From: a bacterium
GTDB taxonomy: Bacteria; Joyebacterota; Joyebacteria; Joyebacterales; Joyebacteraceae
Assembly: GCA_025782395.1 (NCBI GenBank)
Contig: JALGZD010000219.1
Location: 1-64,000 of the forward strand
Length of the DNA: 64,000 bases
Direction: 5' to 3'
Below, piece after piece: positions 1,751 to 21,131 of this stretch. The notes beneath the pieces are model-generated. The model saw nothing but the letters and a program-made list of their open reading frames with translations, did not search any database and was not told where the DNA came from. Position 1 is the first letter of the stretch. Every line of letters begins with the position of its first letter. The position numbers and the translations under genes are program-made.

Positions 1751-2683
1751 CTAGTCCCCGAACGCCATCGTGAGTGAGATCCTGTGAGTCACCTCAAGAT
1801 CTTCGTAGTCGGTGTAGGTGTAGTCGAGCTGGAAATCGCTGTAGGCGAAGCCCGCGCCGTAGCTCAGGTTCCCCATCTCCGAACCGGTCTTGTACCCGGC
1901 CCTGAGAGCCAGCATCTCGTAGATCCAGACCTCGCCACCCACGCCCACCTGCACATCCTGATCCTGCGGCATAATCGCGTCGACCCCGACCAGAAGACCC
2001 ACATTCGGGATCTGATCAGCAACCGTCGCGTAGGACACACCACCGACGTACGTCATCGTCTGGCTGTCCTCATCACCTTCCAACTTGAACTTCGTGCCCA
2101 TGTTCTTCACGGCGACGCCCACGTGTACCTGGTCGTCCATCATGCCGTAGAGCAGTCCGAGATTGAGACCCATCGCCGTCGAGGTCTCATCATCGAAGTT
2201 GGCCTGGATAACGTGGCCCGAAATACCGGCTGCAAGCCCGCAAACGTTCGGCACGTCGAATCCGTAGCCACCGACGAAACCGAAGTTGTAAGCCTCTGCC
2301 GACTCGTTCAGGTCCGTTCCAAACTCATCGAGGACCTCGACACCGCCGAGATTGAAGTACGCCAGACCCATCGCGAGTCCGCCGTCGCCCCGAGGGAGTC
2401 CCACACCGAGATAGCTGTAGGACGTGTCCTCGAACCACTCAATCTGGCTCACACCGAGCTTGAGCCGATCCACATTGGCCAACCCGGCCGGGTTGTAAGT
2501 CAAGCTCCAGATGCCACCAGGCGCGCCCGTGTAGGCCGCCATGGCGCTGGGACCCGCCCCAACACCGATAGCAAAGACATCAAGATAGGTACTTCCAGCC
2601 TTGCCATCGCCCGCCCATGCAGCGCTCGACAGCAGCATCGCGGCGATGATGATCAAGGCAGGAAGACCGAGCCTCTTAGTCAT
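1751..2683 (-). CDS. PorV/PorQ family (UPF0164-like) outer-membrane barrel
   Basis: This 310-residue protein starts with a clear signal peptide (about residues 1-24, ending SSAAWA). The mature protein opens with GSTYLDVFAIGVGAGPSAM and then SLTYNPAGLA, the N-terminal pattern of PorV/PorQ and FadL-like beta-barrels. The rest is alternating Gly/aromatic strands ending in ITHR-type strands and MAFGD. In Bacteroidetes, PorV shuttles type IX secretion cargo at the outer membrane. Here the gene lies 66 bp downstream of a giant protein that carries a FlgD-like C-terminal domain, so a role in exporting or anchoring it is plausible but inferred. AGGAGG precedes the ATG at good spacing. Confidence 0.8.
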   Translation of the reverse strand: MTKRLGLPALIIIAAMLLSSAAWAGDGKAGSTYLDVFAIGVGAGPSAMAAYTGAPGGIWSLTYNPAGLANVDRLKLGVSQIEWFEDTSYSYLGVGLPRGDGGLAMGLAYFNLGGVEVLDEFGTDLNESAEAYNFGFVGGYGFDVPNVCGLAAGISGHVIQANFDDETSTAMGLNLGLLYGMMDDQVHVGVAVKNMGTKFKLEGDEDSQTMTYVGGVSYATVADQIPNVGLLVGVDAIMPQDQDVQVGVGGEVWIYEMLALRAGYKTGSEMGNLSYGAGFAYSDFQLDYTYTDYEDLEVTHRISLTMAFGD

Positions 2684-2749: not shown

Positions 2750-5700
2750 TTACTTGATGACCATGATCTTCCGCGTAACGACCTCGTCGCCGGTGTCGAT
2801 CGTCGCGATGTACATACCGCTCGCGACGGTCTTACCGTCGTCGTTCGTGAGATCCCACAGCACGTCCCCGCGGTCGCCGCCGGAGCCGGTCAGCTCAGCG
2901 ACGAGACCACCGAACATGTCGTAGACCTTCACTACAAGGTCATCACCGACATCGCCAAGCGCGATCGTGATGCCGCCCTCGTACTCAGCCATGCGGTACG
3001 GGTTCGGGTAGATCGCAATCGCATCGCCGCGTTCGATCGTGACGGTAACGTCAACCTCATCCATGTACTCACCGTCGAGCCAGAGAGTCAGTACACCCTC
3101 ATAGTCCTGACCGAGGAGACCCTCAGAAACAGTGATGTGCAGGACGAAGTCTTCCGTCGCGCCGTCCGCGATCGCGGCGGTTTCAGGATCGAACGTGACG
3201 TTCGCACTCGGAATCATCGAGCCGGTCGTCCCGACCAAGTCGTCGATCGTCAACGTGAGACCGGAGGCGATATCGACGTTACCGGTGTTCTCCACCGTCA
3301 CCGTCGCATCAACCATCTCGCCGGCCACACCATCCACCTCGACGTCACCTGAGTAGAAGGCAACCGACGGGAGCGCCTCGACGAACACGCGGACTGTGAA
3401 CACGTCCGAGAGCCCACCGGTGGCTGTAATCTCCACCGTGCCTTCGTACATCCCGGTCACGACCTCGGGATCGCTCCACGTTACGTCGACCGTACCAATG
3501 ATGGCGTCGTCCCAATCACAGGTGGTGCCTATCGTAACAGTGGCGCTCACGCCGTCCGGGAGATTCCGGACAACGAGCGCACCAGCGATGCCCACGATGT
3601 CATCATTACCAATGTTCTCGAGCCCGAACTGACCCGTGACCGGAACTCCATCCGGCGCAGGAGCCAGATCCATGATGTTCCCGACAACGTTGTAGCCGTT
3701 GTCGACAACATTCAAGGCCGTGTAGCACTCGACGTTGAGCGTAAACGTGTCAAGCAGCGTACCGTCCGTGACTGTGACGGTCCCCGTGTATGTGCCGCTC
3801 AGAGCCGGGTCGGTCCAGTCGACCTCCACAACTCCAACCAGACAATCATCCCACGGGAGTCTTCCCTCCACCGTCACGGTACCGTCGAGACCATCCGGCA
3901 GACCGCTCACTGTGCCAACAAGATCCTCGATCGGACAGTTGCCCAGGTTGCATATCTCAAACTGCGCCGTACCGGTACCACCGGCACCGGCGGCGTAGTC
4001 CATCACACCTGCCACCAGGTCGTAGTCCGTATCAGTGATCTCCATCGCCGCGACACAGTTGACGACCATGTTGACCGCTGTCTCGTCGAACTGAGTCTCA
4101 CCGTCGGCAAGCAGAGCAATCGTACCAGCGTACGTGTCCGCCCTCTGACCGGCCGGTATCGCGGCGCAGATCACAACATCACCGGACTCGCCAAGCGGAA
4201 TCGACAGGCTCGTCGGGTCGAAGTCCAAGATAGCGCCAGGAACGGCGATACCTGTGTCATCACCGATGAGGTAGGCCGGAGCCCCGAAGTGAACGTCGTC
4301 GGCAAGATAGTTGCCGATATTGTCCACTGTCGCCGTGTTGCAGGCCTCATCGCCCGGGTCGCCGGTCAGAACGACCAGCGGACTGTCGAACTCCACATCG
4401 ATCACGGCAGTGACGTTGACGGTGAGATGGAAGTAGTCCATCAGCTCGTCCACTGCGTCGATGTCGGGATCGTACACAACAGCCGGACCGAACTCACCAG
4501 CAAGCCAGCCCATACCACTGGCCCAGCCTCTGGCGCAGATCGGCACCGTGCCGTCGCCCGGCGCCCAGCTTGCCGGATGATCCGTCCTGTACGTGCCTGC
4601 CGGGAGGTCGACCGGAATCTCGGCGACCCTCAAGCGGTAGAGCTTCGACGGGCCGTCCAGCATGAGCGTGTCGCCCATCGTACCATCGAGAAGAAGCTCG
4701 ATGGAGTACTCACCGTCCGGCGAGTAGACCCAGAAGCTGACAGGTGTCGAAACACCGTCGGCCGGGACCTTCGTCAGCACGTCAGTGGTCGGATCGTAGT
4801 ACTGCAGGTCGAGAATGCTCTCGGTGCCGGGACCGTCCCAGTCATCGACATTCGTCGATGCACCGGCAGCGTAGACCCGGAACTCGCCGACCATGACGTC
4901 GACGTCACCAGGAGTCACCTCGATATCCATCACGTTGCCCGCCATGTTCGCGTAGTCATCATCGACATCGATGTCGGGCAGCGCGAGATAGAACTTCAAC
5001 GTGAACGTGTCGTTGATCTCATTACCCTGGCAGACACCGTCCGGCGGGTCGGTATCGAGAACTCCGTGCACGTCCTCGAACACCCTGACAGTACCCACAT
5101 ACAATCCATGCGGGAGTGTCGTGGTGTCGATGTAGACGTAGCTCGAGTCGACCTCACTCAGGTTGAGATGATCGACAACCGGCGTATCGAAGCTGATGAC
5201 CGATGTTGGATCCATCGGGCCACTGATCCACTTGTACTCCGCCTCGATCTCGTACGTCAGGTTCACGTTCCCCTGCGGATCAAGCGTGTTCGTATCCCAG
5301 GTCCGGTTGACAAACGGCGTCGCCGCGAACCCGTTGTAGTCGTTGATCAGATCAGGGGTGTGCCCCGGATACGGCCACACACCGTCGGGGTTCGTGTTCG
5401 GGTTTGCATACCTGAACATGCCCGTAACGGTGCCCGGGTACACCGGAGCACCCATCAGGTGCATCTCCGTCAGCGCGGCGGGATCCGGGAAGTCGATCGG
5501 GTCAGAAGCCAGACCAACTCCGAGAGGATCGTCATCGTCGTCGCAGATGTCGATGTCCTTGAGAGGCGCCACGTGGACCAAGACCTCAACCCAGTCGCCT
5601 GGAAGTTCCTGCTCCAGGATGCGCTCCGTCGCAACCTCCACGTAGCCACGATAGATGCCCGGCATCGCGCCCTCCGGAACGTCGACCGTGACCGTGATGG

Positions 5701-8700
5701 TCACTGCCGTGCCGGCAACAAACGCGTCGATGTCGTCATCGCTGAAGCTGACGACGCTGTAGTGGAACCAGTGCGCGACGGTCGTGTCAGGCACGCTGTA
5801 CGTCCCGCCCGCAAGCTCGCCGTACCAGTGGAACGACGTGGCGCGGACCCGGACGTCGTCGAGCGATGCGGCCGTTGAAGGACCGTCGCCCGCGTCGGGG
5901 TTGTTGGCCCCGTCGGTGTGCCAGAGCACGAAGTCTCCGGATCCGCTGACACCAGGCTCGATGCCGACGGCGGGTATACCGATCGTCAGGATGTTACCCA
6001 CGACGTCGCCGTCGTTGTCGTCGATATCGATGTCCCAGTCACCCACGGTGTTGAGGAGAGGATCGGTGACCGCGACGACTTCGTCACCGTCGCTCGTGCC
6101 GCCACGGTCCGTATCGGCCTCGTTCGGATCGGTCTCACCAGTGGTGGCCCAGTCCGAAACCGTGTCGTACGGGCTGTTGCCGTCGCGGTGGCCGTCGCGG
6201 TCCGCATCTTCTGCACCGTCAACGAGGCCGTCGTTGTCCGTATCCGCATCATTCGGATCGGTCGTGTACGCGCCCTTATCGACGGTGTCGTACCTGGCAC
6301 TCGGGGAGGCCGGATTCGCGATGCTCGTGTCCGTGCCCATCGGGGACAACAGACCAAGCTCGAGACCGTCGGCCAGAACGTCACCATCGGTGTCGTAGTC
6401 CAGCGGGTTGATCCCGTACCAGACCTCGAAACCGTCGATGAGACCCTCGTTGTCAGTGTCGTCGTCCTCCGGATCCGTCTCCGTGACGCCGATGTCGGTG
6501 TCATCACCGTCCATGTCGGCGTCCTCTTCGAAGTCCGAAAGGCCGTCGTAGTCACTGTCGTAGAGGTAGACGATCGAGTTCGGCGTTCCATCAAAGTCCC
6601 AGATGCCCGGATCGGGATTCGTTCCACCGATGATCGAGTCGACCGGGTAGCCGGCCATCTTGCCAACCTCGAAGCCGTCGTGCAAACCGTCGCGATCCGT
6701 GTCGAACAACTTCGGATCGGACGCCCTGAAACCGACCTCGCCGGTGTGCGGCTGATGGATGACCTGATAGTACTCGTCACCGTCGAGGATACCATCCTCG
6801 TCGAAGTCACGGTCGTTGTCGGCAAACTCGTGCCAGGTATCGAGTCCCATCTCCTGGCGATCGGACAGGTTATCGTTGTCCGTGTCATTGTCCAGGATGT
6901 CGGGGATACCGTCCGAGTCCGCGTCGTTGACGCCGGCGCAATCCTCATCGCCGTCACCGTCCCAGACCCAGTCGTTGTCACTGTCGACATCCATGGCGTT
7001 GTTGATGCCATCGTTGTCCGTGTCGGCAGTGACGTTCTCCAGGTCGTTCGGGTCGGTATCGTTCTCGTCGCAACCGTCACTATCGGTGTCGGTGTTCGTC
7101 GGGTCGGTCTTGTACGCGTAGTACTCGTCACCGTCGATAATGCCGTCACCATCGGTATCGGTGTCGTTCGGATCGCACATCTGTGCGAACTCGATACCGT
7201 CCTCGAGTCCGTCACCGTCCGTGTCCTCGTCGAACGCATCGGTCAGGTCGAGCGAGTTGTCGATCCAACCGACCGCGTAGGGCGAACTGGCGACGTTGCC
7301 GGCCAGCTCGTAGTAATCGGGCAGACCGTCGTTGTCCGAATCCCTGTCCTGCGCGTCCGTCTCGCCGAGCATGGGCTCGTACGCACCGTTGCCGTTCGCG
7401 TCCTCGACATTATCATCGTAACCGTCGAAGTCACTGTCGGTGAGGCGCGGATCCGTCATCGTTGCCGGATCCTGGTCGCCTGCACCAAACACGGCGGGGT
7501 TCGTGTAGCCGCCGATGTTGCCGGCGTGGTAGCCGACCTCGAGACCGTCGATGAGCGTATCGCCATCGGTGTCCATGTCTCTGGGGTCGATTCCGAACGC
7601 CAGCTCGTCGCCGTCGTAGACGCCGTCGTCGTCCGTGTCGCCGTCCTCAGGATCGGTCTCGGCCAGATCCAGAACGCCGTCCTGGTTGACATCTTCCATG
7701 CCATCGTAGAGATTGTCGTCGTCCATGTCCGCGTCGAGCGGATCATAAACGCGAAGAACCTCCTGGTGGTCCGTGATGCCGTCGCCGTCGGTGTCGGCGT
7801 AGTGCGGATTGGTGCCCATTCCGACCTCGACGTCGTCGTCGAGTCCGTCGCTGTCCATATCATCGTCCATCGGGTCCGTCGGCCAAAGCTGCGGGATACC
7901 ATCGATGTCCCACCACGTGGGATGCATCTCGTCGCCGTCCGTGAGCCCGTCGCCGTCATAGTCGGCGATCAGGTGCATGGTCGGAGGCGTGGTACCTTCA
8001 AGCACGGCCTCTTCGAGATCGAACAGGCCGTCGCCGTCGAAGTCGTCAGGAGTGTAGGAGCAGTCACCGTAGTCCGAAGCATCGAGCGGATCGAAACCGC
8101 ACGCGACTTCCTGAGCATCCGGGTAACCGTCGCCGTCCGTGTCGGGCTCGCCGGGATTCAGCGGGCCGACGTGGAAGCGGGCGCCACGAGCGACCTTGGC
8201 AGCCACGTAGTCTGCGTAGGCGATCTCGGTCCTGTCGTGGAAGTCCAGGTAGACGTACGAGGGAGGATTCTCCCACTCACGCCAGTCTGAATCCGGATCC
8301 AGGACGTTTCCAAGACCGTCGCCACCAAGCTCTGCATCCGTGTCGTCCTCGGTGAACGACCAGTTCATAACCGTGACACCGTCAGCGGCAATGTACGTGC
8401 CTGTGATCGTCTCGCCGTCGAGGATCCCGTCACCGTCGGTGTCGGGATCGAGCGGGTTGGAACCCCAGTCGTTGACCTCAACGCCGTCGTCGACATAGTC
8501 ACCGTCGGTGTTCGGGTTATTCGGATCGGTGCGGTATATGTTGACCTCTTCGCCGTCCGTGAGACCGTCATCGTCCGAGTCGGCGTCGGTCGGATCTGTT
8601 CCCCAGATCCAGACTTCCGCGCCGTCGATGAGACCGTCGCCATCACTGTCCCAGTTCTGGTCGTTAGTCCCGTAGGTGGCCTCGTCACCGTCGAGGATTC

Positions 8701-10093
8701 CGTCACCGTCCGCATCCCTGTCGAGGGCGTTGATCATCGCGTCCTTGAACGGCAGCGGCCGCGACGCGTCTGTGTTCGCGTTCACGCGGTCGGAGCTGCT
8801 GCCCGTTCCCTCGACCAGCCCATCACCGTCTGTATCGTCCTTGTCGAAGTTCGTCTTGTACACATAGATCTCATCGCCGGGATCGATTCCGTCGGTATCG
8901 TACGGGTCATTCGGATCGGTCGGATCCGAGCCGTAGATCTGGATCTCGGCGTTGTCGTCGATGCCGTCGCCGTCCGTATCCGTATCGTACGGGTCGGTCT
9001 CGCCTGCATCAACTACGCCGTCTCCATCGACATCCTCGTACTCATCATCGATACCGTCGTTGTCGCTATCGAGATCGAGTGCGTCAATGAGACCGTCGCC
9101 GTCCGTGTCGCGACCAGGACTGCTCTGCGGGTTCTCGATCGTGTCCGAGATACCGTCGCCGTCCGTGTCTACGTCGCCCGGGTCGGTCTTGTAGAGGGTG
9201 ATCTCCTCACCATCGTACCAACCGTCGCCGTCGGCATCTTCCCCGCTCAGCGGATTGCTCAGCGCGTGGTAGATCTCATAACCATCGCTAAAGCCGTCGC
9301 CGTCGGTGTCATACATCTCGGGATCGATCTCGCCAGCGTCGACCACACCGTTCTCGTTGTAGTCTTCCTGGCTGTCCGTGACGCCGTCGTTGTCACTGTC
9401 GAAGTCGACCGCATTGATCTGGCCGTCTCCATCGGCGTCCACGTTGTCCTCGTTACCGATCCCGTCGACCCGACCGTCCCCATCCGTGTCAGGATTGGTT
9501 GGGTCGGTTCCGTACGTGATCTCCTCGAAGTCGTTCCAACCATCGCCGTCAGTGTTCGCGTTGAGCGGATCACATCCGTACATAGCCTCGAGTCCATCGA
9601 TCAGACCGTCGCCATCGGTATCCGCGTTAAGCCAGTCCGTCTCGAAGTACGGAGCCTGCGGCTCATGAACACCGTTGCCGTTCGCGTCCTCGACGCCATC
9701 AGGAATCCCGTCGCCGTCAGAATCGAGATCGAGCGCGTTGATCAGCGAGTCCTCGTCCTCAATGCTGTCAACGAGCCCTTCGATTCCATCTGAGATCCCG
9801 TCGCCATCGGTATCCCAGTTGTACGGGTCCGTCTCGCCTACATCGACAATGCCGTTGCCGTTAACGTCCTCCTCGACATCCGTGAGACCATCGCCGTCCC
9901 AATCTGCACCTTCGTCCAATACAGTAGCGTGCAGACCGTGCTTGATCTCATAGAAGTCCGGCAGGCCGTCGCCGTCCGTGTCGTAATAGTACGCACAGGC
10001 CGGGACGGCACCGACAAGCATCAGCGAGAACACGACAAAGAGCGAAGTGAGCGCCACGAATGCGCTTCTGTCGCTGCGGTTCTCTCTTGCCAT
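2750..10093 (-). CDS. Giant secreted TSP3-repeat calcium-binding protein with FlgD-like C-terminal domain
   Basis: The 2447-residue product begins with a signal peptide (MARENRSDRS... ending ACA). From about residue 35 to 1345 it is an almost uninterrupted array of thrombospondin type-3 units of the form DTDGDGL.D..E, each offering Asp side chains for Ca2+. Residues from about 1355 form several beta-sandwich (Ig/NEW3-like) modules. The last ~85 residues start with IYPNPY and end RKIMVIK, a FlgD-like sorting or anchor domain. ATG 10093 is chosen because AGGAGG (10101-10106) sits 7 nt upstream and the signal peptide starts there. An upstream in-frame ATG at 10252 would add 53 residues ahead of the signal sequence. 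A surface stalk or adhesin is the likely role; no catalytic domain was seen. Confidence 0.88.
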   Translation of the reverse strand: MARENRSDRSAFVALTSLFVVFSLMLVGAVPACAYYYDTDGDGLPDFYEIKHGLHATVLDEGADWDGDGLTDVEEDVNGNGIVDVGETDPYNWDTDGDGISDGIEGLVDSIEDEDSLINALDLDSDGDGIPDGVEDANGNGVHEPQAPYFETDWLNADTDGDGLIDGLEAMYGCDPLNANTDGDGWNDFEEITYGTDPTNPDTDGDGRVDGIGNEDNVDADGDGQINAVDFDSDNDGVTDSQEDYNENGVVDAGEIDPEMYDTDGDGFSDGYEIYHALSNPLSGEDADGDGWYDGEEITLYKTDPGDVDTDGDGISDTIENPQSSPGRDTDGDGLIDALDLDSDNDGIDDEYEDVDGDGVVDAGETDPYDTDTDGDGIDDNAEIQIYGSDPTDPNDPYDTDGIDPGDEIYVYKTNFDKDDTDGDGLVEGTGSSSDRVNANTDASRPLPFKDAMINALDRDADGDGILDGDEATYGTNDQNWDSDGDGLIDGAEVWIWGTDPTDADSDDDGLTDGEEVNIYRTDPNNPNTDGDYVDDGVEVNDWGSNPLDPDTDGDGILDGETITGTYIAADGVTVMNWSFTEDDTDAELGGDGLGNVLDPDSDWREWENPPSYVYLDFHDRTEIAYADYVAAKVARGARFHVGPLNPGEPDTDGDGYPDAQEVACGFDPLDASDYGDCSYTPDDFDGDGLFDLEEAVLEGTTPPTMHLIADYDGDGLTDGDEMHPTWWDIDGIPQLWPTDPMDDDMDSDGLDDDVEVGMGTNPHYADTDGDGITDHQEVLRVYDPLDADMDDDNLYDGMEDVNQDGVLDLAETDPEDGDTDDDGVYDGDELAFGIDPRDMDTDGDTLIDGLEVGYHAGNIGGYTNPAVFGAGDQDPATMTDPRLTDSDFDGYDDNVEDANGNGAYEPMLGETDAQDRDSDNDGLPDYYELAGNVASSPYAVGWIDNSLDLTDAFDEDTDGDGLEDGIEFAQMCDPNDTDTDGDGIIDGDEYYAYKTDPTNTDTDSDGCDENDTDPNDLENVTADTDNDGINNAMDVDSDNDWVWDGDGDEDCAGVNDADSDGIPDILDNDTDNDNLSDRQEMGLDTWHEFADNDRDFDEDGILDGDEYYQVIHQPHTGEVGFRASDPKLFDTDRDGLHDGFEVGKMAGYPVDSIIGGTNPDPGIWDFDGTPNSIVYLYDSDYDGLSDFEEDADMDGDDTDIGVTETDPEDDDTDNEGLIDGFEVWYGINPLDYDTDGDVLADGLELGLLSPMGTDTSIANPASPSARYDTVDKGAYTTDPNDADTDNDGLVDGAEDADRDGHRDGNSPYDTVSDWATTGETDPNEADTDRGGTSDGDEVVAVTDPLLNTVGDWDIDIDDNDGDVVGNILTIGIPAVGIEPGVSGSGDFVLWHTDGANNPDAGDGPSTAASLDDVRVRATSFHWYGELAGGTYSVPDTTVAHWFHYSVVSFSDDDIDAFVAGTAVTITVTVDVPEGAMPGIYRGYVEVATERILEQELPGDWVEVLVHVAPLKDIDICDDDDDPLGVGLASDPIDFPDPAALTEMHLMGAPVYPGTVTGMFRYANPNTNPDGVWPYPGHTPDLINDYNGFAATPFVNRTWDTNTLDPQGNVNLTYEIEAEYKWISGPMDPTSVISFDTPVVDHLNLSEVDSSYVYIDTTTLPHGLYVGTVRVFEDVHGVLDTDPPDGVCQGNEINDTFTLKFYLALPDIDVDDDYANMAGNVMDIEVTPGDVDVMVGEFRVYAAGASTNVDDWDGPGTESILDLQYYDPTTDVLTKVPADGVSTPVSFWVYSPDGEYSIELLLDGTMGDTLMLDGPSKLYRLRVAEIPVDLPAGTYRTDHPASWAPGDGTVPICARGWASGMGWLAGEFGPAVVYDPDIDAVDELMDYFHLTVNVTAVIDVEFDSPLVVLTGDPGDEACNTATVDNIGNYLADDVHFGAPAYLIGDDTGIAVPGAILDFDPTSLSIPLGESGDVVICAAIPAGQRADTYAGTIALLADGETQFDETAVNMVVNCVAAMEITDTDYDLVAGVMDYAAGAGGTGTAQFEICNLGNCPIEDLVGTVSGLPDGLDGTVTVEGRLPWDDCLVGVVEVDWTDPALSGTYTGTVTVTDGTLLDTFTLNVECYTALNVVDNGYNVVGNIMDLAPAPDGVPVTGQFGLENIGNDDIVGIAGALVVRNLPDGVSATVTIGTTCDWDDAIIGTVDVTWSDPEVVTGMYEGTVEITATGGLSDVFTVRVFVEALPSVAFYSGDVEVDGVAGEMVDATVTVENTGNVDIASGLTLTIDDLVGTTGSMIPSANVTFDPETAAIADGATEDFVLHITVSEGLLGQDYEGVLTLWLDGEYMDEVDVTVTIERGDAIAIYPNPYRMAEYEGGITIALGDVGDDLVVKVYDMFGGLVAELTGSGGDRGDVLWDLTNDDGKTVASGMYIATIDTGDEVVTRKIMVIK

Positions 10094-10525
10094 CCGACAA
10101 CCTCCTAGAATTGCGTTCTCACTCCGATGGCGCTCTCCCATGCGCCTCCGGGGCCCCGTCATGTGGCATCCCTGCTCACACGCGGAGAGTTCCCGCCGCC
10201 CACCAGGAGCGACGAACGTTCCCCTAACTACCGGTACTGAGTATTCGCGCATTCACCTCCTATCGACGCTGGATAAGCCACCACACCGGCGGCCTCCAAA
10301 CGTAGGAACCCAACTGTCTCTCTTCCCTAGTCTACCTCTTTACAACAACCCTGTACGGGTTTTGCGGCAATCTAGCACACGGTCCCAAAATCTGTCAACC
10401 TTCTTTTTGCCGACGGATCCGGGGCTTGCCGTCGTTCCAACGCAAGGGCCTTTGTCAAGTTAGCTCGCCGCTCCGGGGCGTTGCGCGAACTGTCGCGCCA
10501 TCTCTATCGAACTCCGCCGCGGACC
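10094..10525. other. Long leader region of the giant TSP3 gene
   Basis: The 432 bp between alr and the giant gene hold a promoter at 10369-10398 and then about 270 nt of leader. The leader contains a small AACCC/GGGTT hairpin and a second ribosome-binding site (AGGAGG) followed by ATG 10252 in frame with the giant gene. I recognise no known riboswitch class here. Confidence 0.5.
10369..10398 (-). promoter_or_regulatory. Promoter for the giant TSP3 gene
   Basis: TTGACA (10393-10398) and TAGATT (10369-10374) are separated by 18 nt on the minus strand. The predicted transcript starts near 10362, leaving a leader of about 270 nt. Confidence 0.65.
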
Positions 10526-11731
10526 CTAGACGGGCCCTCCGCCGTCGGTCCACCGCCGCCTTCCCATTGCTCTGCGTTCTATCAGGGTCCGCGTCCCGAT
10601 CGTCTCGCCACTCTGGACGTAAGTCCGCGCTACGCGCTTGCCTATGCCACAGATCACTTCGTAGTTGAGCGTATTCGACCGTTCAGCCACGTCGTCGACC
10701 GTTATCTCCTCACCACCCTGTTTTCCGAACAGTACGACCTCATCGCCGACCGTAGCGTTTCGGATATCATCTATCCTGACGAGAGTCACGTCCATCGTGA
10801 CTCGCCCGACCACGGGTGCGCGCTGTCCTCGAATCAGCACCTCGCCGCAGTTCGACAGCCTGAAGCTGTAGCCGTGCCCGTACCCGACCGGCACGACCGC
10901 TATCTTCGTTGCCGTCTCGGTCACATACGAGCGCCCGTAGCTCACGCCGTGGCCCGCCGGCAGATCGCGTATCTGAGCGATCCGGGACTTGAAGGTCATC
11001 ACGGGCTCCAGGCGTGCGTCCACTCCGGCCGTGGGCGAAGGCCTCAGTCCGTAGATCATGATACCGAGTCGAGCCATGTTGAGGGGGTTTTCAACCGAGG
11101 ACTTGATGTTGAGAACAGCCCCGCTGTTCGCTGCGTGTCGGAGCGGGATCTCGATTCCCTTGCTCTCAAGTCGCCGAAGGAGTGTCTGGAACTGCTCTAT
11201 CTGATTGAGCGTGAATTCCTCGTCATCATCCGACGACGGGAAGTGTGTGAAGACGCCCTCGAGTATCAGCTCCGGTAGTTTCCTCAGTGCCCCAATGAAG
11301 GGGCCCGCGTCCGCCAGGGCTACTCCGCTGCGGCCCATCCCGGTATCCACTTCCACGTGGACAACGCCCTGCTTCCCTCGCGAGACACATGCCCTTGAAA
11401 GCGCCCGTGCGATGCCCAAACTCGGCACAGTACACGACAGCTCATATTCGATGATGCTCTCGGCCTCGTTTTCCATCGGTGGACTGAGGATGAGGATCGG
11501 CGCGTCAATGCCGGCCTGCCTTAGCTCCATCCCCTCGTGGAGCGTGGCCACGCCGAGCATGTCTACTCCTGACCGTACAGCTATCCTCGCCACCTCCACC
11601 GCACCATGCCCGTACGCATCGGCCTTTACCACCATCATGATGTGGCAGTCGTCTCCCGCACGGCCGCGCACCTCTCCGATATTGTGGATGAGCGCGTCCA
11701 GATCGATCTCGACCCATGTCGAGAAACGCAT
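10526..11731 (-). CDS. alr: Alanine racemase
   Basis: This PLP enzyme interconverts L- and D-alanine for peptidoglycan synthesis in the cytoplasm. The 401-residue protein starts MRFSTWVEIDLDALIHN and carries the PLP-lysine motif VVKADAYGHG (Lys36). The catalytic Tyr motif GVSYGRSY and the PVGYGHG segment lie in the C-terminal half, where the beta-barrel C-terminal domain begins. ATG 11731 is preceded by AGGAGG with a 6-nt spacer (11738-11743). A longer frame from GTG 11833 would add 34 hydrophobic residues not found in the family, so I reject it. The stop codon is TAG. The gene is transcribed towards the giant TSP3 gene. Confidence 0.95.
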   Translation of the reverse strand: MRFSTWVEIDLDALIHNIGEVRGRAGDDCHIMMVVKADAYGHGAVEVARIAVRSGVDMLGVATLHEGMELRQAGIDAPILILSPPMENEAESIIEYELSCTVPSLGIARALSRACVSRGKQGVVHVEVDTGMGRSGVALADAGPFIGALRKLPELILEGVFTHFPSSDDDEEFTLNQIEQFQTLLRRLESKGIEIPLRHAANSGAVLNIKSSVENPLNMARLGIMIYGLRPSPTAGVDARLEPVMTFKSRIAQIRDLPAGHGVSYGRSYVTETATKIAVVPVGYGHGYSFRLSNCGEVLIRGQRAPVVGRVTMDVTLVRIDDIRNATVGDEVVLFGKQGGEEITVDDVAERSNTLNYEVICGIGKRVARTYVQSGETIGTRTLIERRAMGRRRWTDGGGPV

Positions 11732-11926
11732 CGCCTTCCTCCTGCGAGTACCGAGCTTCCCTGAGCGGCCAAAGAGCCACCCTGGAAACATTACTAAGTA
11801 GCACAGCCCCAGTACCGCCGCAAGTGGATTCACCAGAAAAGTCCCATCCAGAGCCCTTTCTCTCCGCAGCCGAGCATATCAGTTCATGGACTTGTCAAAG
11901 AACCTGCGTGCGGATACGAGGACTCA

Positions 11927-15706: not shown

Positions 15707-18700
15707 CTACTTCAGCATGATCATCCTGGTCACGTTGCTGATCTCGCCGGTCGTGAGACGCGCGAAGTAGACGCCCGACGCCAGCCTCCTGCCGCTCTCA
15801 TCGCGACCGTGCCACACCACCGCGTGCTCACCAGACTCGAGGACACCGTTGAACAGGGTCGCGACCTTCCTGCCGGCAATGTCGTAGACGTCCAGCCGTC
15901 CCTCAACCCCGTCGTCGGCCGCATCCACGATGAACGCGATCGTCGTCAGCGGATTGAACGGATTGGGGCGGTTCTGAAGGAGTCGATTCCCACCCGCGAA
16001 AACGTCGCCGCTCTCCGCGACTCCGGTCGAGCCCTCGTCAGGAACACCGTCTCCGTCGTGGTCTATCATGATCGTGTAGACGGTATCCAACACAGGGAGC
16101 GTCGCCGAGGCGTTGGATGGCGCACTGTCGCCGCCCAGCTCTCCATCCGGTTCCGGATCCCAGCATACGGAAGCGACGAGCGAGAACTCCGCGTTCACCG
16201 GCACTGTTCCCGGGCCGAGTCCGTAGAGCACGTTCCAGGGAATCGCCATCTCGCTGCCACCGCTCACCCCGTGGTTGTGAAACGAGTCCAACGCCGCGAT
16301 GATCGAGTCGGTGAGCGCAGTGGTGGTCGTCGAGCTATCTATCGAGAAAAAGCTGCCGGAGTCCCACGCGCCCTGGTGCTGATAGCAACCGTACTGGAAA
16401 TCGGCCCTGAACCCGCTCGCCGTGAAGGTGGTCCCGCGCTCCCACGCATCGATGGCCGTGAGATCTGTTTCGCCGTCCGGGCCTCCCGGATCGGTATCGA
16501 GGTAGAGGATCCAGCTGTTCCCCTGAACCTGACCGTTGATGCCCAGATAGAGGAAGTCCTCGTCCCAATCCACATAGAGGCCATAGAGCTCGTTCATCTC
16601 GGGGTCTTCCGGCGGATGCCAGCCGGAATCATCGTCCGGATCGTCGACCACAAGCGTGTACGGCGCCCACTCGGCCGGATCGAAGTAGCCGTCGATCGTG
16701 ATTCTCGTATCGGCGCCGTAGATGACCCTGATGTCGTCGGTGTTCGTCACCTGAGCGTTGCCGTTATCCGCGAGGTCAGAGAACGAGTCTGCCGCCAGCA
16801 GGAGCTCGAGTGTTCCCGGCGTTAAGAACTCGATCGCCTCCGCCGTCGCGGACGTGACCTGGATCCGGATGACGGCGGCATCTTCGGAGTTGAGAACGGT
16901 CGCGCCGCTCGTCAGCGTAACCTCGGCCACGCCATCGTCATTCTCGTCGATGGCGATACCGGTCTTGACGATGTTGTCGTACTGCACGATCTCATTGAAA
17001 ACGATATCGAGACGGTCGGCGCTCGGATAGTAGTTGGCCACCACGGGCTGAGGGGCCAGTTCGTCGGTCAGCCCTGCAGCCAGGACCTCGAGCTCGGCGA
17101 TTTCATCGTAGTACGGCTCGCTCGCGTAGCCGGCGTAGATGTAGAACTCGAACTGCCCGGTGCCGACGATCTCGTCAACCTCGAGGAGCGTCGCAGTCTG
17201 CACCAGGTTGTGCGAAGTGCCACCGGCGCCGAGGACGACGGCGGCCGTTGCGCCGCTCGAGGTATTCCTCTGCCCGCAGTAGTCCGCCCCCGGATCCCAC
17301 ACACGGGTGAGTTCCGTGTCCCAGATGAGGTCGACGAGGTCCGGCGTCCAACCGTTCTTTATATAGACGGTCTCGCCTCCTGCATCGTAGATCACGTCGA
17401 GGTGCACATCACCAAGCGACAGCTTCACGCGCTTCTCGACGACGCCGGCATTGTGCGTGATCCTGAGCTCGACATCGCTCCCCGAAGCGGAGACGACTTC
17501 GAACACGTAATCATCGTGCTCGCGGTCTATGCCACCGACGCTCACGTCGGAGAGCGCCGCCGTGTGATTCGTCTCGTTCCAGTCACCGGACGTCTCAGCC
17601 CAGTACACGTTGCAGTTGCCGACGACCGAGTATCCGTATCCGGAGCCCTTCGCGAAGATCCAGTTGGCCTTCCCGCCTATTACCTCGAAAACCGCCATCA
17701 CGCGGTCGTTGTAGATCACCGCCTCGTCGCGACCGTCTTCGTCGATGTCCCAGAGTGAGCAGCCGGTCGGGTTCGTACCGTAGATTCCGATCTCGTCAGC
17801 CCAGAGGGCAGCTTCAGAATAGACGTTTGCGTTCTTGATGTGGTTCGAGTACCGGTGCTCCCACCCGGCGATCCCGCCGACGTCGTGCCAGCCCGTCTCG
17901 TGGAGCATCGACATCATCACGTACCACGCGGACTCAGAGAGGTCGTTGTTCGGGCCGGCCACAACCTTGTCGTGGGCGAACTGCCACACACCCTGATAGC
18001 CCCACTGCGGGTCGTGCCCGTCCTGGTTCTCCTCACCGGTGTAGCTCGCCCAGTTGCAGTACCAGGAGTTGTTGCCCCCACCGTAGCCGTACCACTCACC
18101 CAGAAGCCCGTAAGTCCCGTTCTGGAGCGTGATCGCGTACGACGGAAATGACGACACGACATCATCGAGCTTCCACACGCTGATCACATCACTATAGAGA
18201 CTGCACTGCTGGAGGACGTAGATGTAGTTGTTGAGAGCGTCGGGATGTGTGACATCGAACCCTGCGACCTCCGCCGCCACCTCCCAGTCGTTCCCGTAGA
18301 TAATGATCTCGTCCGACGTCCCGGCCCAGATCGTTGACATGGCGGCGCCTGCGTCGTACCCCATCTGGCCGTTGAAGTCGTTGTCCATCGGGAGAACCTT
18401 GAGACCGTTGTCGAGAACATAGACGTGATGGTCATTCAGGTAGTCGTTCATGTAGCCGCAGTGCACGTAGTCATCGAGTATCACCGCGGCGACGCCGTTG
18501 TCGTAGAAATCGTCCTTCAGAGTGTTGTCGATGACACAGGCCGATGCATCGATGCCGTTGCCATCACTGTCCGGGTTCTCAAGCCAGACGCGCTCCGGCA
18601 CCCAGGCGACCGTCGGCCACTGCCCGTAGTAGTGGTTCGTGAGCTGACGGTGTGTGTTGACCGACCAGCTGTTCATGTCGTCGTAGACGAACGGCATGAT

Positions 18701-19000
18701 GTGCTGCGCGTACGCGGAGGTCAGCATCTGAACCCAGCCCTCGCTGATGCCGTTCACGAGTGAATCATTGAAGGCCGGATCGTGCCACTCGGCTCCGGTC
18801 ACGAGCGTCCCGGCCATGTGGAAGTTGCCGGGGATGTTGTAGTACGGGGATGTTGTAGTAGTCGTGCGCGTCGAGGATCTCATCGAAACCGTCATCCGGG
18901 TTTGCCGGATCGCCGGCGTAGGAGGCGTTCTCGCCTTTCTCACCCCAGAAGACGGTCGTGTATGTGAGTCCCTGATTACCGTGCTGCGCAAACGCGACAT
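15707..19000 (-). CDS. GH57-like hydrolase, C-terminal fragment frame
   Basis: This is the longest open frame of the broken gene above. Only residues from about 53 (position 18844) belong to the original protein; the first ~52 residues are Arg/Thr-rich out-of-frame sequence. It contains most of the catalytic domain, the second CBM9-like domain and the FlgD-like C-terminal domain. Without the upstream frames it has no signal peptide, so as written it would not be exported. Confidence 0.7.
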   Translation of the reverse strand: MSRLRSTVIRDSHTRPSSGVRKARTPPTPAIRQTRMTVSMRSSTRTTTTTSPYYNIPGNFHMAGTLVTGAEWHDPAFNDSLVNGISEGWVQMLTSAYAQHIMPFVYDDMNSWSVNTHRQLTNHYYGQWPTVAWVPERVWLENPDSDGNGIDASACVIDNTLKDDFYDNGVAAVILDDYVHCGYMNDYLNDHHVYVLDNGLKVLPMDNDFNGQMGYDAGAAMSTIWAGTSDEIIIYGNDWEVAAEVAGFDVTHPDALNNYIYVLQQCSLYSDVISVWKLDDVVSSFPSYAITLQNGTYGLLGEWYGYGGGNNSWYCNWASYTGEENQDGHDPQWGYQGVWQFAHDKVVAGPNNDLSESAWYVMMSMLHETGWHDVGGIAGWEHRYSNHIKNANVYSEAALWADEIGIYGTNPTGCSLWDIDEDGRDEAVIYNDRVMAVFEVIGGKANWIFAKGSGYGYSVVGNCNVYWAETSGDWNETNHTAALSDVSVGGIDREHDDYVFEVVSASGSDVELRITHNAGVVEKRVKLSLGDVHLDVIYDAGGETVYIKNGWTPDLVDLIWDTELTRVWDPGADYCGQRNTSSGATAAVVLGAGGTSHNLVQTATLLEVDEIVGTGQFEFYIYAGYASEPYYDEIAELEVLAAGLTDELAPQPVVANYYPSADRLDIVFNEIVQYDNIVKTGIAIDENDDGVAEVTLTSGATVLNSEDAAVIRIQVTSATAEAIEFLTPGTLELLLAADSFSDLADNGNAQVTNTDDIRVIYGADTRITIDGYFDPAEWAPYTLVVDDPDDDSGWHPPEDPEMNELYGLYVDWDEDFLYLGINGQVQGNSWILYLDTDPGGPDGETDLTAIDAWERGTTFTASGFRADFQYGCYQHQGAWDSGSFFSIDSSTTTTALTDSIIAALDSFHNHGVSGGSEMAIPWNVLYGLGPGTVPVNAEFSLVASVCWDPEPDGELGGDSAPSNASATLPVLDTVYTIMIDHDGDGVPDEGSTGVAESGDVFAGGNRLLQNRPNPFNPLTTIAFIVDAADDGVEGRLDVYDIAGRKVATLFNGVLESGEHAVVWHGRDESGRRLASGVYFARLTTGEISNVTRMIMLK
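18829..18860. repeat. Perfect 16-bp tandem duplication causing a frameshift
   Basis: cggggatgttgtagta occurs at 18829-18844 and again, identically, at 18845-18860. Removing one copy joins ...HDYYNIP directly to GNFHMAG in one frame. Confidence 0.95.
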
Positions 19001-19760: not shown

Positions 19761-21131
19761 TCAGTTCTGCCCGCGCCCCATCCAGCCGGTGACGTAGTCG
19801 GGCGGAATCCTGAGCATCTCAAAGATCGACGCGATGAACTCGCCGTTATCACCTCCACGTGCGGGGTTCATGTACTCCCACACGATCTCTCCGTCAGGTG
19901 TCACTTCGATCGCACGTCCGCGATCGGTCTCGCTTATCAGCGTGTTGCCGTTCGGCAGCCGTTCGTTCGACCCACAGCGCGGTGAGTGAAACGTGTTCGT
20001 GTCGCTTCCCTTGTAGACCCACGTGATTTGCTTTGTCAGCGGATCGAACTCCAGAATCCGCGAGGCGCCGCGACTTCCACCGTTGTCAAATATCAGCGTG
20101 CGCCCGTTCGGCAGAATCGTCGGCTGATGCTGTTTGAGCCACGGCCCTTCAGATCCCTAGACGACCTCCGCGCGTTCCATGTCGATCACTGCGATGTTGT
20201 CGAGCTCCCGAATACAGATCAGTACATTCCCCTTCCGGAACGCCGGCAACCGCGCCGCCAGCCGCCCATCCAGAACCTCTATCGTGTTGGTGTGAAAGAT
20301 GTCTCCCCTGTCAGCCATCCCATCCAGCAGCGATGCGAACGGTGACTTCTCGATCGCCTCGAGCTGCGAGACCCGTTTGAGTTCGTTCCCCTCCGAATCG
20401 AGAACAACGATGAACTCCTCGAGGATCGGGTGGTCCGGATTGATCCTCGGAACGATGCGCGCCTCACGAAGAAGCACGTAGATCCTGCCGTCCTCCATGA
20501 CATCCAGATCATGATGAAACCCGCCGAACCTCGCCCATATCAGATTCGAGTCCTTGTCGATCTTGATCAGCCCGTGGCCGTCAAAGACCGCGAGGATGTC
20601 ACCGTTCTCAAAAAGGTACGCGCGACGCCAGAAACCCGATGCCTTGCTCGATTTCGGGAGCTCTCCCCGGGGGCCGGCGCGCCAGGCCTCGATGAATGGG
20701 TAGCTCCACGTATGCAGGACGTCACCTCGCATGTCCATCAGGATCGCGCCCGCGAGGTGGCCGGATGTGTACAGATTCAGCCCGTCCCAAGTCCGCGTGC
20801 TGTCATAGACGGTGACTCCGGACGCGTCCGGAGGCTCCGAGGAACCGGACAGATAGCCGATCGACTCCAGCCGCTCGAACTCCGCAAGCTGCTCCTCCGT
20901 GAGCGCGCCGCCGCTATCCCTGTGCCAGCGGCCACCCGGCTTCTCCCACTGATCCATTTCAGCAGTCGCCGGGCCGGCGGTCTCGCGGTCCTCCGAGCTG
21001 TCACGTCCCCCACACCCCCCAAGCGAGATGAGAGACACGATAGCGGCAATCACGAGACCGAATATCGGCGCCCGGGCTCGCGCGGTGCGGGACTCCGAAG
21101 ATCGAAAACCGATGCTTCCCCCTATCTCCAC
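19761..21131 (-). pseudogene. Arylsulfotransferase-like lipoprotein with an in-frame amber stop
   Basis: The frame from GTG 21131 runs to TGA 19761 with one internal TAG at 20157-20159. Before the TAG are a signal sequence with lipobox LGGC and beta-propeller-like segments (AILMDMRGDVLHTW, FHHDLDVMEDGRIYVL). After it, the same frame reads GPWLKQHQPTILPNGRTL, then IFDNGG, RLPNGNTLISETDRGRAIEV and VWEYMNP, all typical of the arylsulfotransferase (ASST_2) family. The stop falls where relatives commonly have Trp (VVW.G), so TGG to TAG is the simplest explanation. The family moves sulfate between phenolic compounds or acts as a propeller binding protein. The start codon is uncertain because it lacks a clear ribosome-binding site. 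Confidence 0.8.
20157..21131 (-). CDS. Arylsulfotransferase-like lipoprotein, N-terminal readable part
   Basis: This is the 324-residue product actually encoded before the amber codon. It would lack the last ~130 residues, including the conserved QHQP histidine segment, so it is unlikely to fold as a complete propeller. It would still be lipidated at the Cys of LGGC and exported. Confidence 0.65.
   Translation of the reverse strand: MEIGGSIGFRSSESRTARARAPIFGLVIAAIVSLISLGGCGGRDSSEDRETAGPATAEMDQWEKPGGRWHRDSGGALTEEQLAEFERLESIGYLSGSSEPPDASGVTVYDSTRTWDGLNLYTSGHLAGAILMDMRGDVLHTWSYPFIEAWRAGPRGELPKSSKASGFWRRAYLFENGDILAVFDGHGLIKIDKDSNLIWARFGGFHHDLDVMEDGRIYVLLREARIVPRINPDHPILEEFIVVLDSEGNELKRVSQLEAIEKSPFASLLDGMADRGDIFHTNTIEVLDGRLAARLPAFRKGNVLICIRELDNIAVIDMERAEVV

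Follow-up and report, generated by a model that had tools for sequence, protein, structure and literature searches.

How could a bacterium build a surface protein of 2447 residues, most of them in predicted calcium-binding TSP3 repeats, and how would it bring such a protein across its outer membrane and hold it there? These questions are raised by a minus-strand gene at positions 2750-10093 (stop codon included) of the window, the stretch of 64,000 nucleotides of contig JALGZD010000219.1 that was analyzed here. The gene lies in an open reading frame of 2500 residues (10252-2750, minus strand), and the start at 10093, which gives the 2447-residue protein, is common to most relatives, is preceded by an AGGAGG ribosome-binding site, and opens an N-terminus (MARENRSDR) that most relatives keep. 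Further upstream is a promoter-like site (TTGACA-18-TAGATT, 10369-10398, minus strand), a consensus match only, with 10 of 12 positions matching where 0.1 such sites would be expected. Residues 1-34 (9992-10093, minus strand) form a Sec signal peptide, as predicted by eye from the sequence and the alignment; the cysteine near its end varies in the alignment, likewise by eye, and a conserved lipobox cysteine was not seen. Long plus-strand open reading frames opposite the repeats were rejected as genes, as they are mirror images of aspartate-rich codons (GAC read as GTC).

The sequence-only reading had described a protein built mainly of TSP3 repeats, with a near-continuous series of DxDxDG units from residue 35 to about 1345, and both descriptions were confirmed. 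The array spans residues 35-1356 (6026-9991, minus strand) and contains 48 DxDxDG motifs between residues 35 and 1345 (about 52 loops by a relaxed count), whereas 1000 composition-preserving shuffles averaged 2.3 and never exceeded 9; 34 of the 48 have the longer form DxDxDGxxD. Its sole break is an island of about 80 non-repeat residues (about 572-650; 8144-8380, minus strand) between the motif starts at 549 and 651. Aspartate makes up 24% of the array, which carries 400 acidic versus 32 basic residues. The Pfam model TSP3_bac (PF18884) matched 17 stretches of the protein with a score of 109.9 bits against a cut-off of 25, and this was the only protein of its genome to match; TSP_3 (PF02412) gave no match in a genome search whose controls were also silent. 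Across relatives, the ligand positions of the unit (1, 3, 5, 9, and 12) are 93-99% identical, compared to 45-69% for the other positions except the glycine at position 6 (87%), and dN/dS is 0.16-0.18 in the array versus 0.29-0.33 in the rest of the protein. The family model and the position-specific conservation of ligands support the prediction that these repeats bind calcium. A second, unrelated-looking TSP3-rich protein, a frame of 2266 residues, was observed in another genome (G006:C1:436000-444500).

Array length was evaluated in an alignment of ten complete TSP3 proteins, which come from nine genomes of six genera. All comparisons fall within one family of metagenome assemblies (Candidatus Eisenbacteria among the named relatives), which holds every full-length match and is all of the phylum in the genome collection used. 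The sequence-only reading had allowed for arrays that vary in length between relatives or that result from collapse or expansion during assembly, and neither proved to be the case. The array measures 1318-1360 residues in eight of the ten proteins, with 1450 and 1526 residues in those of genera g6 and g8, and separate assemblies agree on its length. Tandem Repeats Finder detected no unit-length tandem repeat in the array DNA, only two trivial repeats, which rules out the collapse of such a repeat. Units within one protein share 37% identity on average, and each unit tends to find its best match in its positional counterpart, as seen for 34 of 34 units in the nearest relative and 17-29 of 34 in the others. 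Together with the conservation of the ligands, the near-fixed length, the positional matches, and the missing DNA repeat indicate that the array is old and constrained unit by unit, and that it is neither an assembly artifact nor a freely varying spacer. They also bear on the reading of the acidic repeats as a charge buffer or calcium store without a defined fold, for which length and order would hardly matter. The excess of acidic over basic residues would fit such a role, but bulk charge would not need units that keep their own identity across genera or the many conserved non-ligand positions, and we consider this reading very improbable.

The shape of the array, which the sequence-only reading saw as a possible calcium-stiffened stalk many tens of nanometres long, is a separate matter. 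The AlphaFold model of residues 35-1200, run on seven sequences, reached a pLDDT of 28.5 and was discarded as uninformative either way, and sequence searches of the PDB found no TSP3 relative of the array. Weak matches to lanmodulin and to a biofilm-associated surface protein were dismissed as chance or motif resemblance. In animal thrombospondins, TSP3 repeats pack around sandwich domains, and the array could likewise form a compact calcium-bound scaffold around such domains in place of an extended stalk. Fixed length and position-specific conservation would suit specific packing of this kind, yet conservation would also be expected of an extended rod with an exact length, and the array model is unusable for telling the two apart. 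The compact form is quite possible, although we would lean modestly away from it; it concerns shape and is compatible with the export mechanism proposed below.

Beyond the array, the repeated beta-sandwich modules described from the sequence were supported. They occupy residues 1491-2360 (3014-5623, minus strand), where a medium-confidence predicted model (mean pLDDT 61.6) gave PDB matches of immunoglobulin and cadherin type. The top fold matches were ciliary central-pair proteins, whose TM-scores of at most 0.2 point to nothing more than a series of Ig-like domains. About 113 residues after position 2090 are absent from genera g3 and g4. Directly C-terminal to the array, residues 1350-1490 (5624-6046, minus strand) are 38-57% identical between the protein of the window's genome (G000) and that of its congener G002, while the arrays of the two are 93% identical. 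In the array tree these two proteins are sisters (100/100); in the tree of this domain, the version of the window clusters with those of genera g3 and g7 (99/97) and that of G002 with G008, and a tree holding the two congeners together was rejected (p-AU 9e-11). The trees thus show recombination of a single domain between lineages. Such an exchange would suit a recognition surface.

The last part of the protein had been read as FlgD-like. The FlgD_ig model does match it weakly (18.9 bits against a cut-off of 27), but the better description is a type IX secretion system (T9SS) type A sorting domain, for which TIGR04183 scores 28.9 bits against a cut-off of 23. The domain covers residues 2361-2447 (2753-3013, minus strand) and is PorZ-like, with the last 100 residues scoring 56.8 bits against the PorZ C-terminus, compared to 21-31 bits for generic tails of the same genome. 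The PorZ model NF052228 run over the whole protein matched at the C-terminus only, with 49 bits against a cut-off of 260, and was not passed. The type B tail (TIGR04131) was not found in the protein by the NCBIfam scan, and a genome search for it, with silent controls, was also empty. The genome encodes homologues of SprA (520.7 bits, cut-off 200) and PorU (536.6 bits, cut-off 420), the latter adjoining a core PorV at G000:C67:139272-140174, along with 76 sorting domains. A search for the motor protein GldM/PorM yielded no match in the genome, and its controls were likewise silent. Other genes were observed in the window on the same strand. At 15707-19000 a GH57-like protein of 1097 residues carries a T9SS tail, 20157-21131 encodes an arylsulfotransferase-like protein, and 1-1446 encodes a Sortilin/VPS10-type protein cut by the contig start, which is 81% identical over 235 residues to a protein near the other contig end (C1:278 kb).

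The gene directly downstream, 66 nucleotides away, encodes an outer-membrane barrel of the PorV/PorQ family (310 residues; 1751-2683, minus strand). It passes the family model NF033709 (119.3 bits, cut-off 90) and fails the PorQ model NF033711 (68.9 bits, cut-off 220), with PorQ ahead of PorV (68.9 versus 41.9 bits); in the core PorV this order is reversed (74.5 versus 176.5 bits). No promoter-like or terminator-like site was found on that strand between the two genes. Orthologues of the barrel form one clade (support 100/99), and in every linked locus seen the barrel lies directly downstream of the TSP3 gene. Upstream, outside of the proposed system, the alanine racemase gene alr (10526-11833, minus strand) is part of a conserved order alr-TSP3-barrel, with mazG and nudix genes further upstream where the sequence extends that far. 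Both the TSP3 gene and the barrel are present in 13 of 20 family genomes, and neither was seen in five. Among these five, the contig of G017 ends right after alr, the genome of G004 is 73% complete, alr is absent from G005 as well, and G016 and G018 keep alr followed by 7-9 kb with neither gene. G001 and G014 have all or part of the barrel, with no TSP3 match seen; the contig of G001 begins 93 bases before the barrel.

Two genomes (G012 and G010) carry a second TSP3 copy beyond the nudix gene, and these copies have no barrel. Their last 300 residues differ, having been replaced as a block, and end in a generic tail of NPFNPTT type. Every barrel-linked copy ends in TRK(I/V)MVI(K/R), and linked tails score 51-57 bits against the PorZ C-terminus, while those of the barrel-less copies fall below threshold. 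The barrel-less copies probably stem from one duplication, so the change of tail counts as one event or two, and the comparison of last residues between linked and unlinked tails (p 0.04) is weak, with a pattern chosen after looking. A related protein with a generic-looking tail (G015:C348) was left out of the count because its contig ends there. In the trees, the two G012 copies are sisters by their arrays; by its sandwich part, the barrel-less copy belongs with the G010 copies instead. Arrays may thus be homogenised within a genome as tails stay distinct. The barrel-less copy of G010 (G010:C143) is split into several frames within its array, either as a broken gene or through an assembly error.

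Taken as a whole, we somewhat favor a mechanism in which the TSP3 protein is a T9SS cargo, exported through SprA and kept on a dedicated PorQ-like barrel, with a rigid, calcium-loaded array. The protein would be made with a Sec signal and then cross the outer membrane through SprA, from which the adjoining PorV/PorQ-family barrel would take it over. The PorZ-like sorting domain would probably stay on the barrel, uncut by the sortase PorU, such that the barrel would serve as both shuttle and anchor. Once outside, the highly acidic array would take up calcium in about 50 loops and so become a rigid structure of set size that bears the beta-sandwich modules, and the exchanged domain at the array end might provide a surface for recognition or adhesion. 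PorZ of Porphyromonas gingivalis is retained on PorQ with its tail intact (PMC10202324). It is from this retention, from the PorZ-like linked tails, and from the PorQ-leaning barrel that we infer the shuttle-and-anchor role, and a review has raised the possibility that tails are shielded from cleavage by cognate PorV-like barrels (PMC10202324). The failure of the barrel at the PorQ cut-off and of the protein at the PorZ cut-off counts against retention, as does the fact that the tail also passes the ordinary type A model. Members of TIGR04183 are usually cut off by PorU.

The protein could instead be an ordinary type A cargo, passing from the common PorV to PorU, losing its tail, and being attached to lipopolysaccharide or released, with the neighboring barrel serving another role. 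A tail that passes TIGR04183 and a genome with core PorV and PorU would allow this, and all type A tails of Flavobacterium johnsoniae use one PorV (PMC12618676). Such a route would leave unaccounted for the conserved pairing of the TSP3 gene with one barrel clade, the change of tail type in copies without the barrel, and the placement of nine of the eleven barrels of the genome behind a gene with a tail, and we regard it as unlikely.

Those eleven clear PorV/PorQ-family genes extend the observation beyond this locus. For four of them, a type A tail (E <= 0.001) is encoded on the same strand no more than 800 bp upstream (binomial p 3.6e-6), and this strict count is the safe figure. With neighbors inspected and with weak tails and the known PorU-PorV pair included, nine are found behind a gene whose product has a tail of T9SS or FlgD type; of the other two, one comes second in a tandem pair and one is isolated. 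The preceding genes encode PorU, a C25 peptidase, a protein with 11 CarboxypepD_reg stretches, the TSP3 giant, and others. The CarboxypepD_reg protein (at least 1269 residues; G000:C128:106-111 kb, 5195-9001, minus strand) has a FlgD-type tail and directly precedes its barrel. The C25 (gingipain-type) peptidase (1204 residues; G000:C34:70-75 kb, 5117-10227, minus strand) has a type A tail and is followed by a barrel whose closest model is PorV2 (196.8 of 325 bits); the two possibly form a PorU2-PorV2 pair. At G000:C67:22-25 kb (3771-7034, minus strand), a 572-residue protein with a type A tail precedes a barrel of 515 residues that resembles PorQ and has an additional part at its C-terminus, and the two are a candidate for the genuine PorZ-PorQ pair; open frames for similar barrels occur in most family genomes, including some that lack the TSP3 gene. 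On the same contig (G000:C67:46-48 kb, 3150-7574, minus strand), two tandem barrels follow a 777-residue protein with a weakly recognisable tail.

Several known systems share parts of this arrangement. The attachment complex of P. gingivalis (PMC10202324) offers the closest tail and a barrel of PorQ type, which the barrel here resembles more than PorV; it differs in that only the last 100 residues resemble PorZ, both family cut-offs are missed, and the cargo is a 2447-residue TSP3 protein. Type B tails have cognate PorP/SprF shuttles encoded alongside, as in SprB-SprF (PMC9143113, PMC12618676), where the gene of a giant repetitive surface protein is likewise followed immediately by that of a FadL-type barrel of its own; the protein described here differs in its type A-like tail and in a partner barrel from the PorV/PorQ family. 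CglD of Myxococcus (NF033765) and the TSP3 proteins MtsC and MtsD are also bacterial surface proteins with long TSP3 arrays. The TSP3 giant scores 349.4 bits on NF033765, below its cut-off of 400, and differs from CglD in its beta-sandwiches and T9SS tail and in being no lipoprotein, as judged by eye from the alignment. Among outer-membrane or surface proteins, predicted calcium-binding TSP3 repeats also occur as linkers in OmpA-type proteins and TraB (Dai et al. 2017, as cited in PMC12045341); those linkers are short, compared to about 1320 residues here. Literature searches that combined TSP3 with T9SS, or T9SS with Eisenbacteria, returned nothing.

In total, the array is a clear case of a long repeat region kept at nearly fixed length by evolution, which argues against reading such arrays as loose spacers. 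For the lineage, a broader proposal falls just short of an even chance, namely that each type A-like cargo has its own dedicated PorV/PorQ-family barrel as shuttle and permanent anchor, outside of the Bacteroidota, to which reviews describe the T9SS as restricted (PMC10202324, PMC12618676). Cargo-specific adjacent barrels have so far been described mainly for another class of export signal, type B. The presence of SprA, PorU, PorV, 76 tails, and eleven barrels, most of them behind a cargo gene, in one Candidatus Eisenbacteria genome suggests that cargo can be sorted in a different way, and allows the specificity between tail and barrel to be tested by comparison. If the proposal is true, the pairing of one cargo with one barrel, familiar from type B tails and PorP/SprF, would have a second form on another barrel family, and the TSP3 giant would be the largest client of dedicated barrels seen here.
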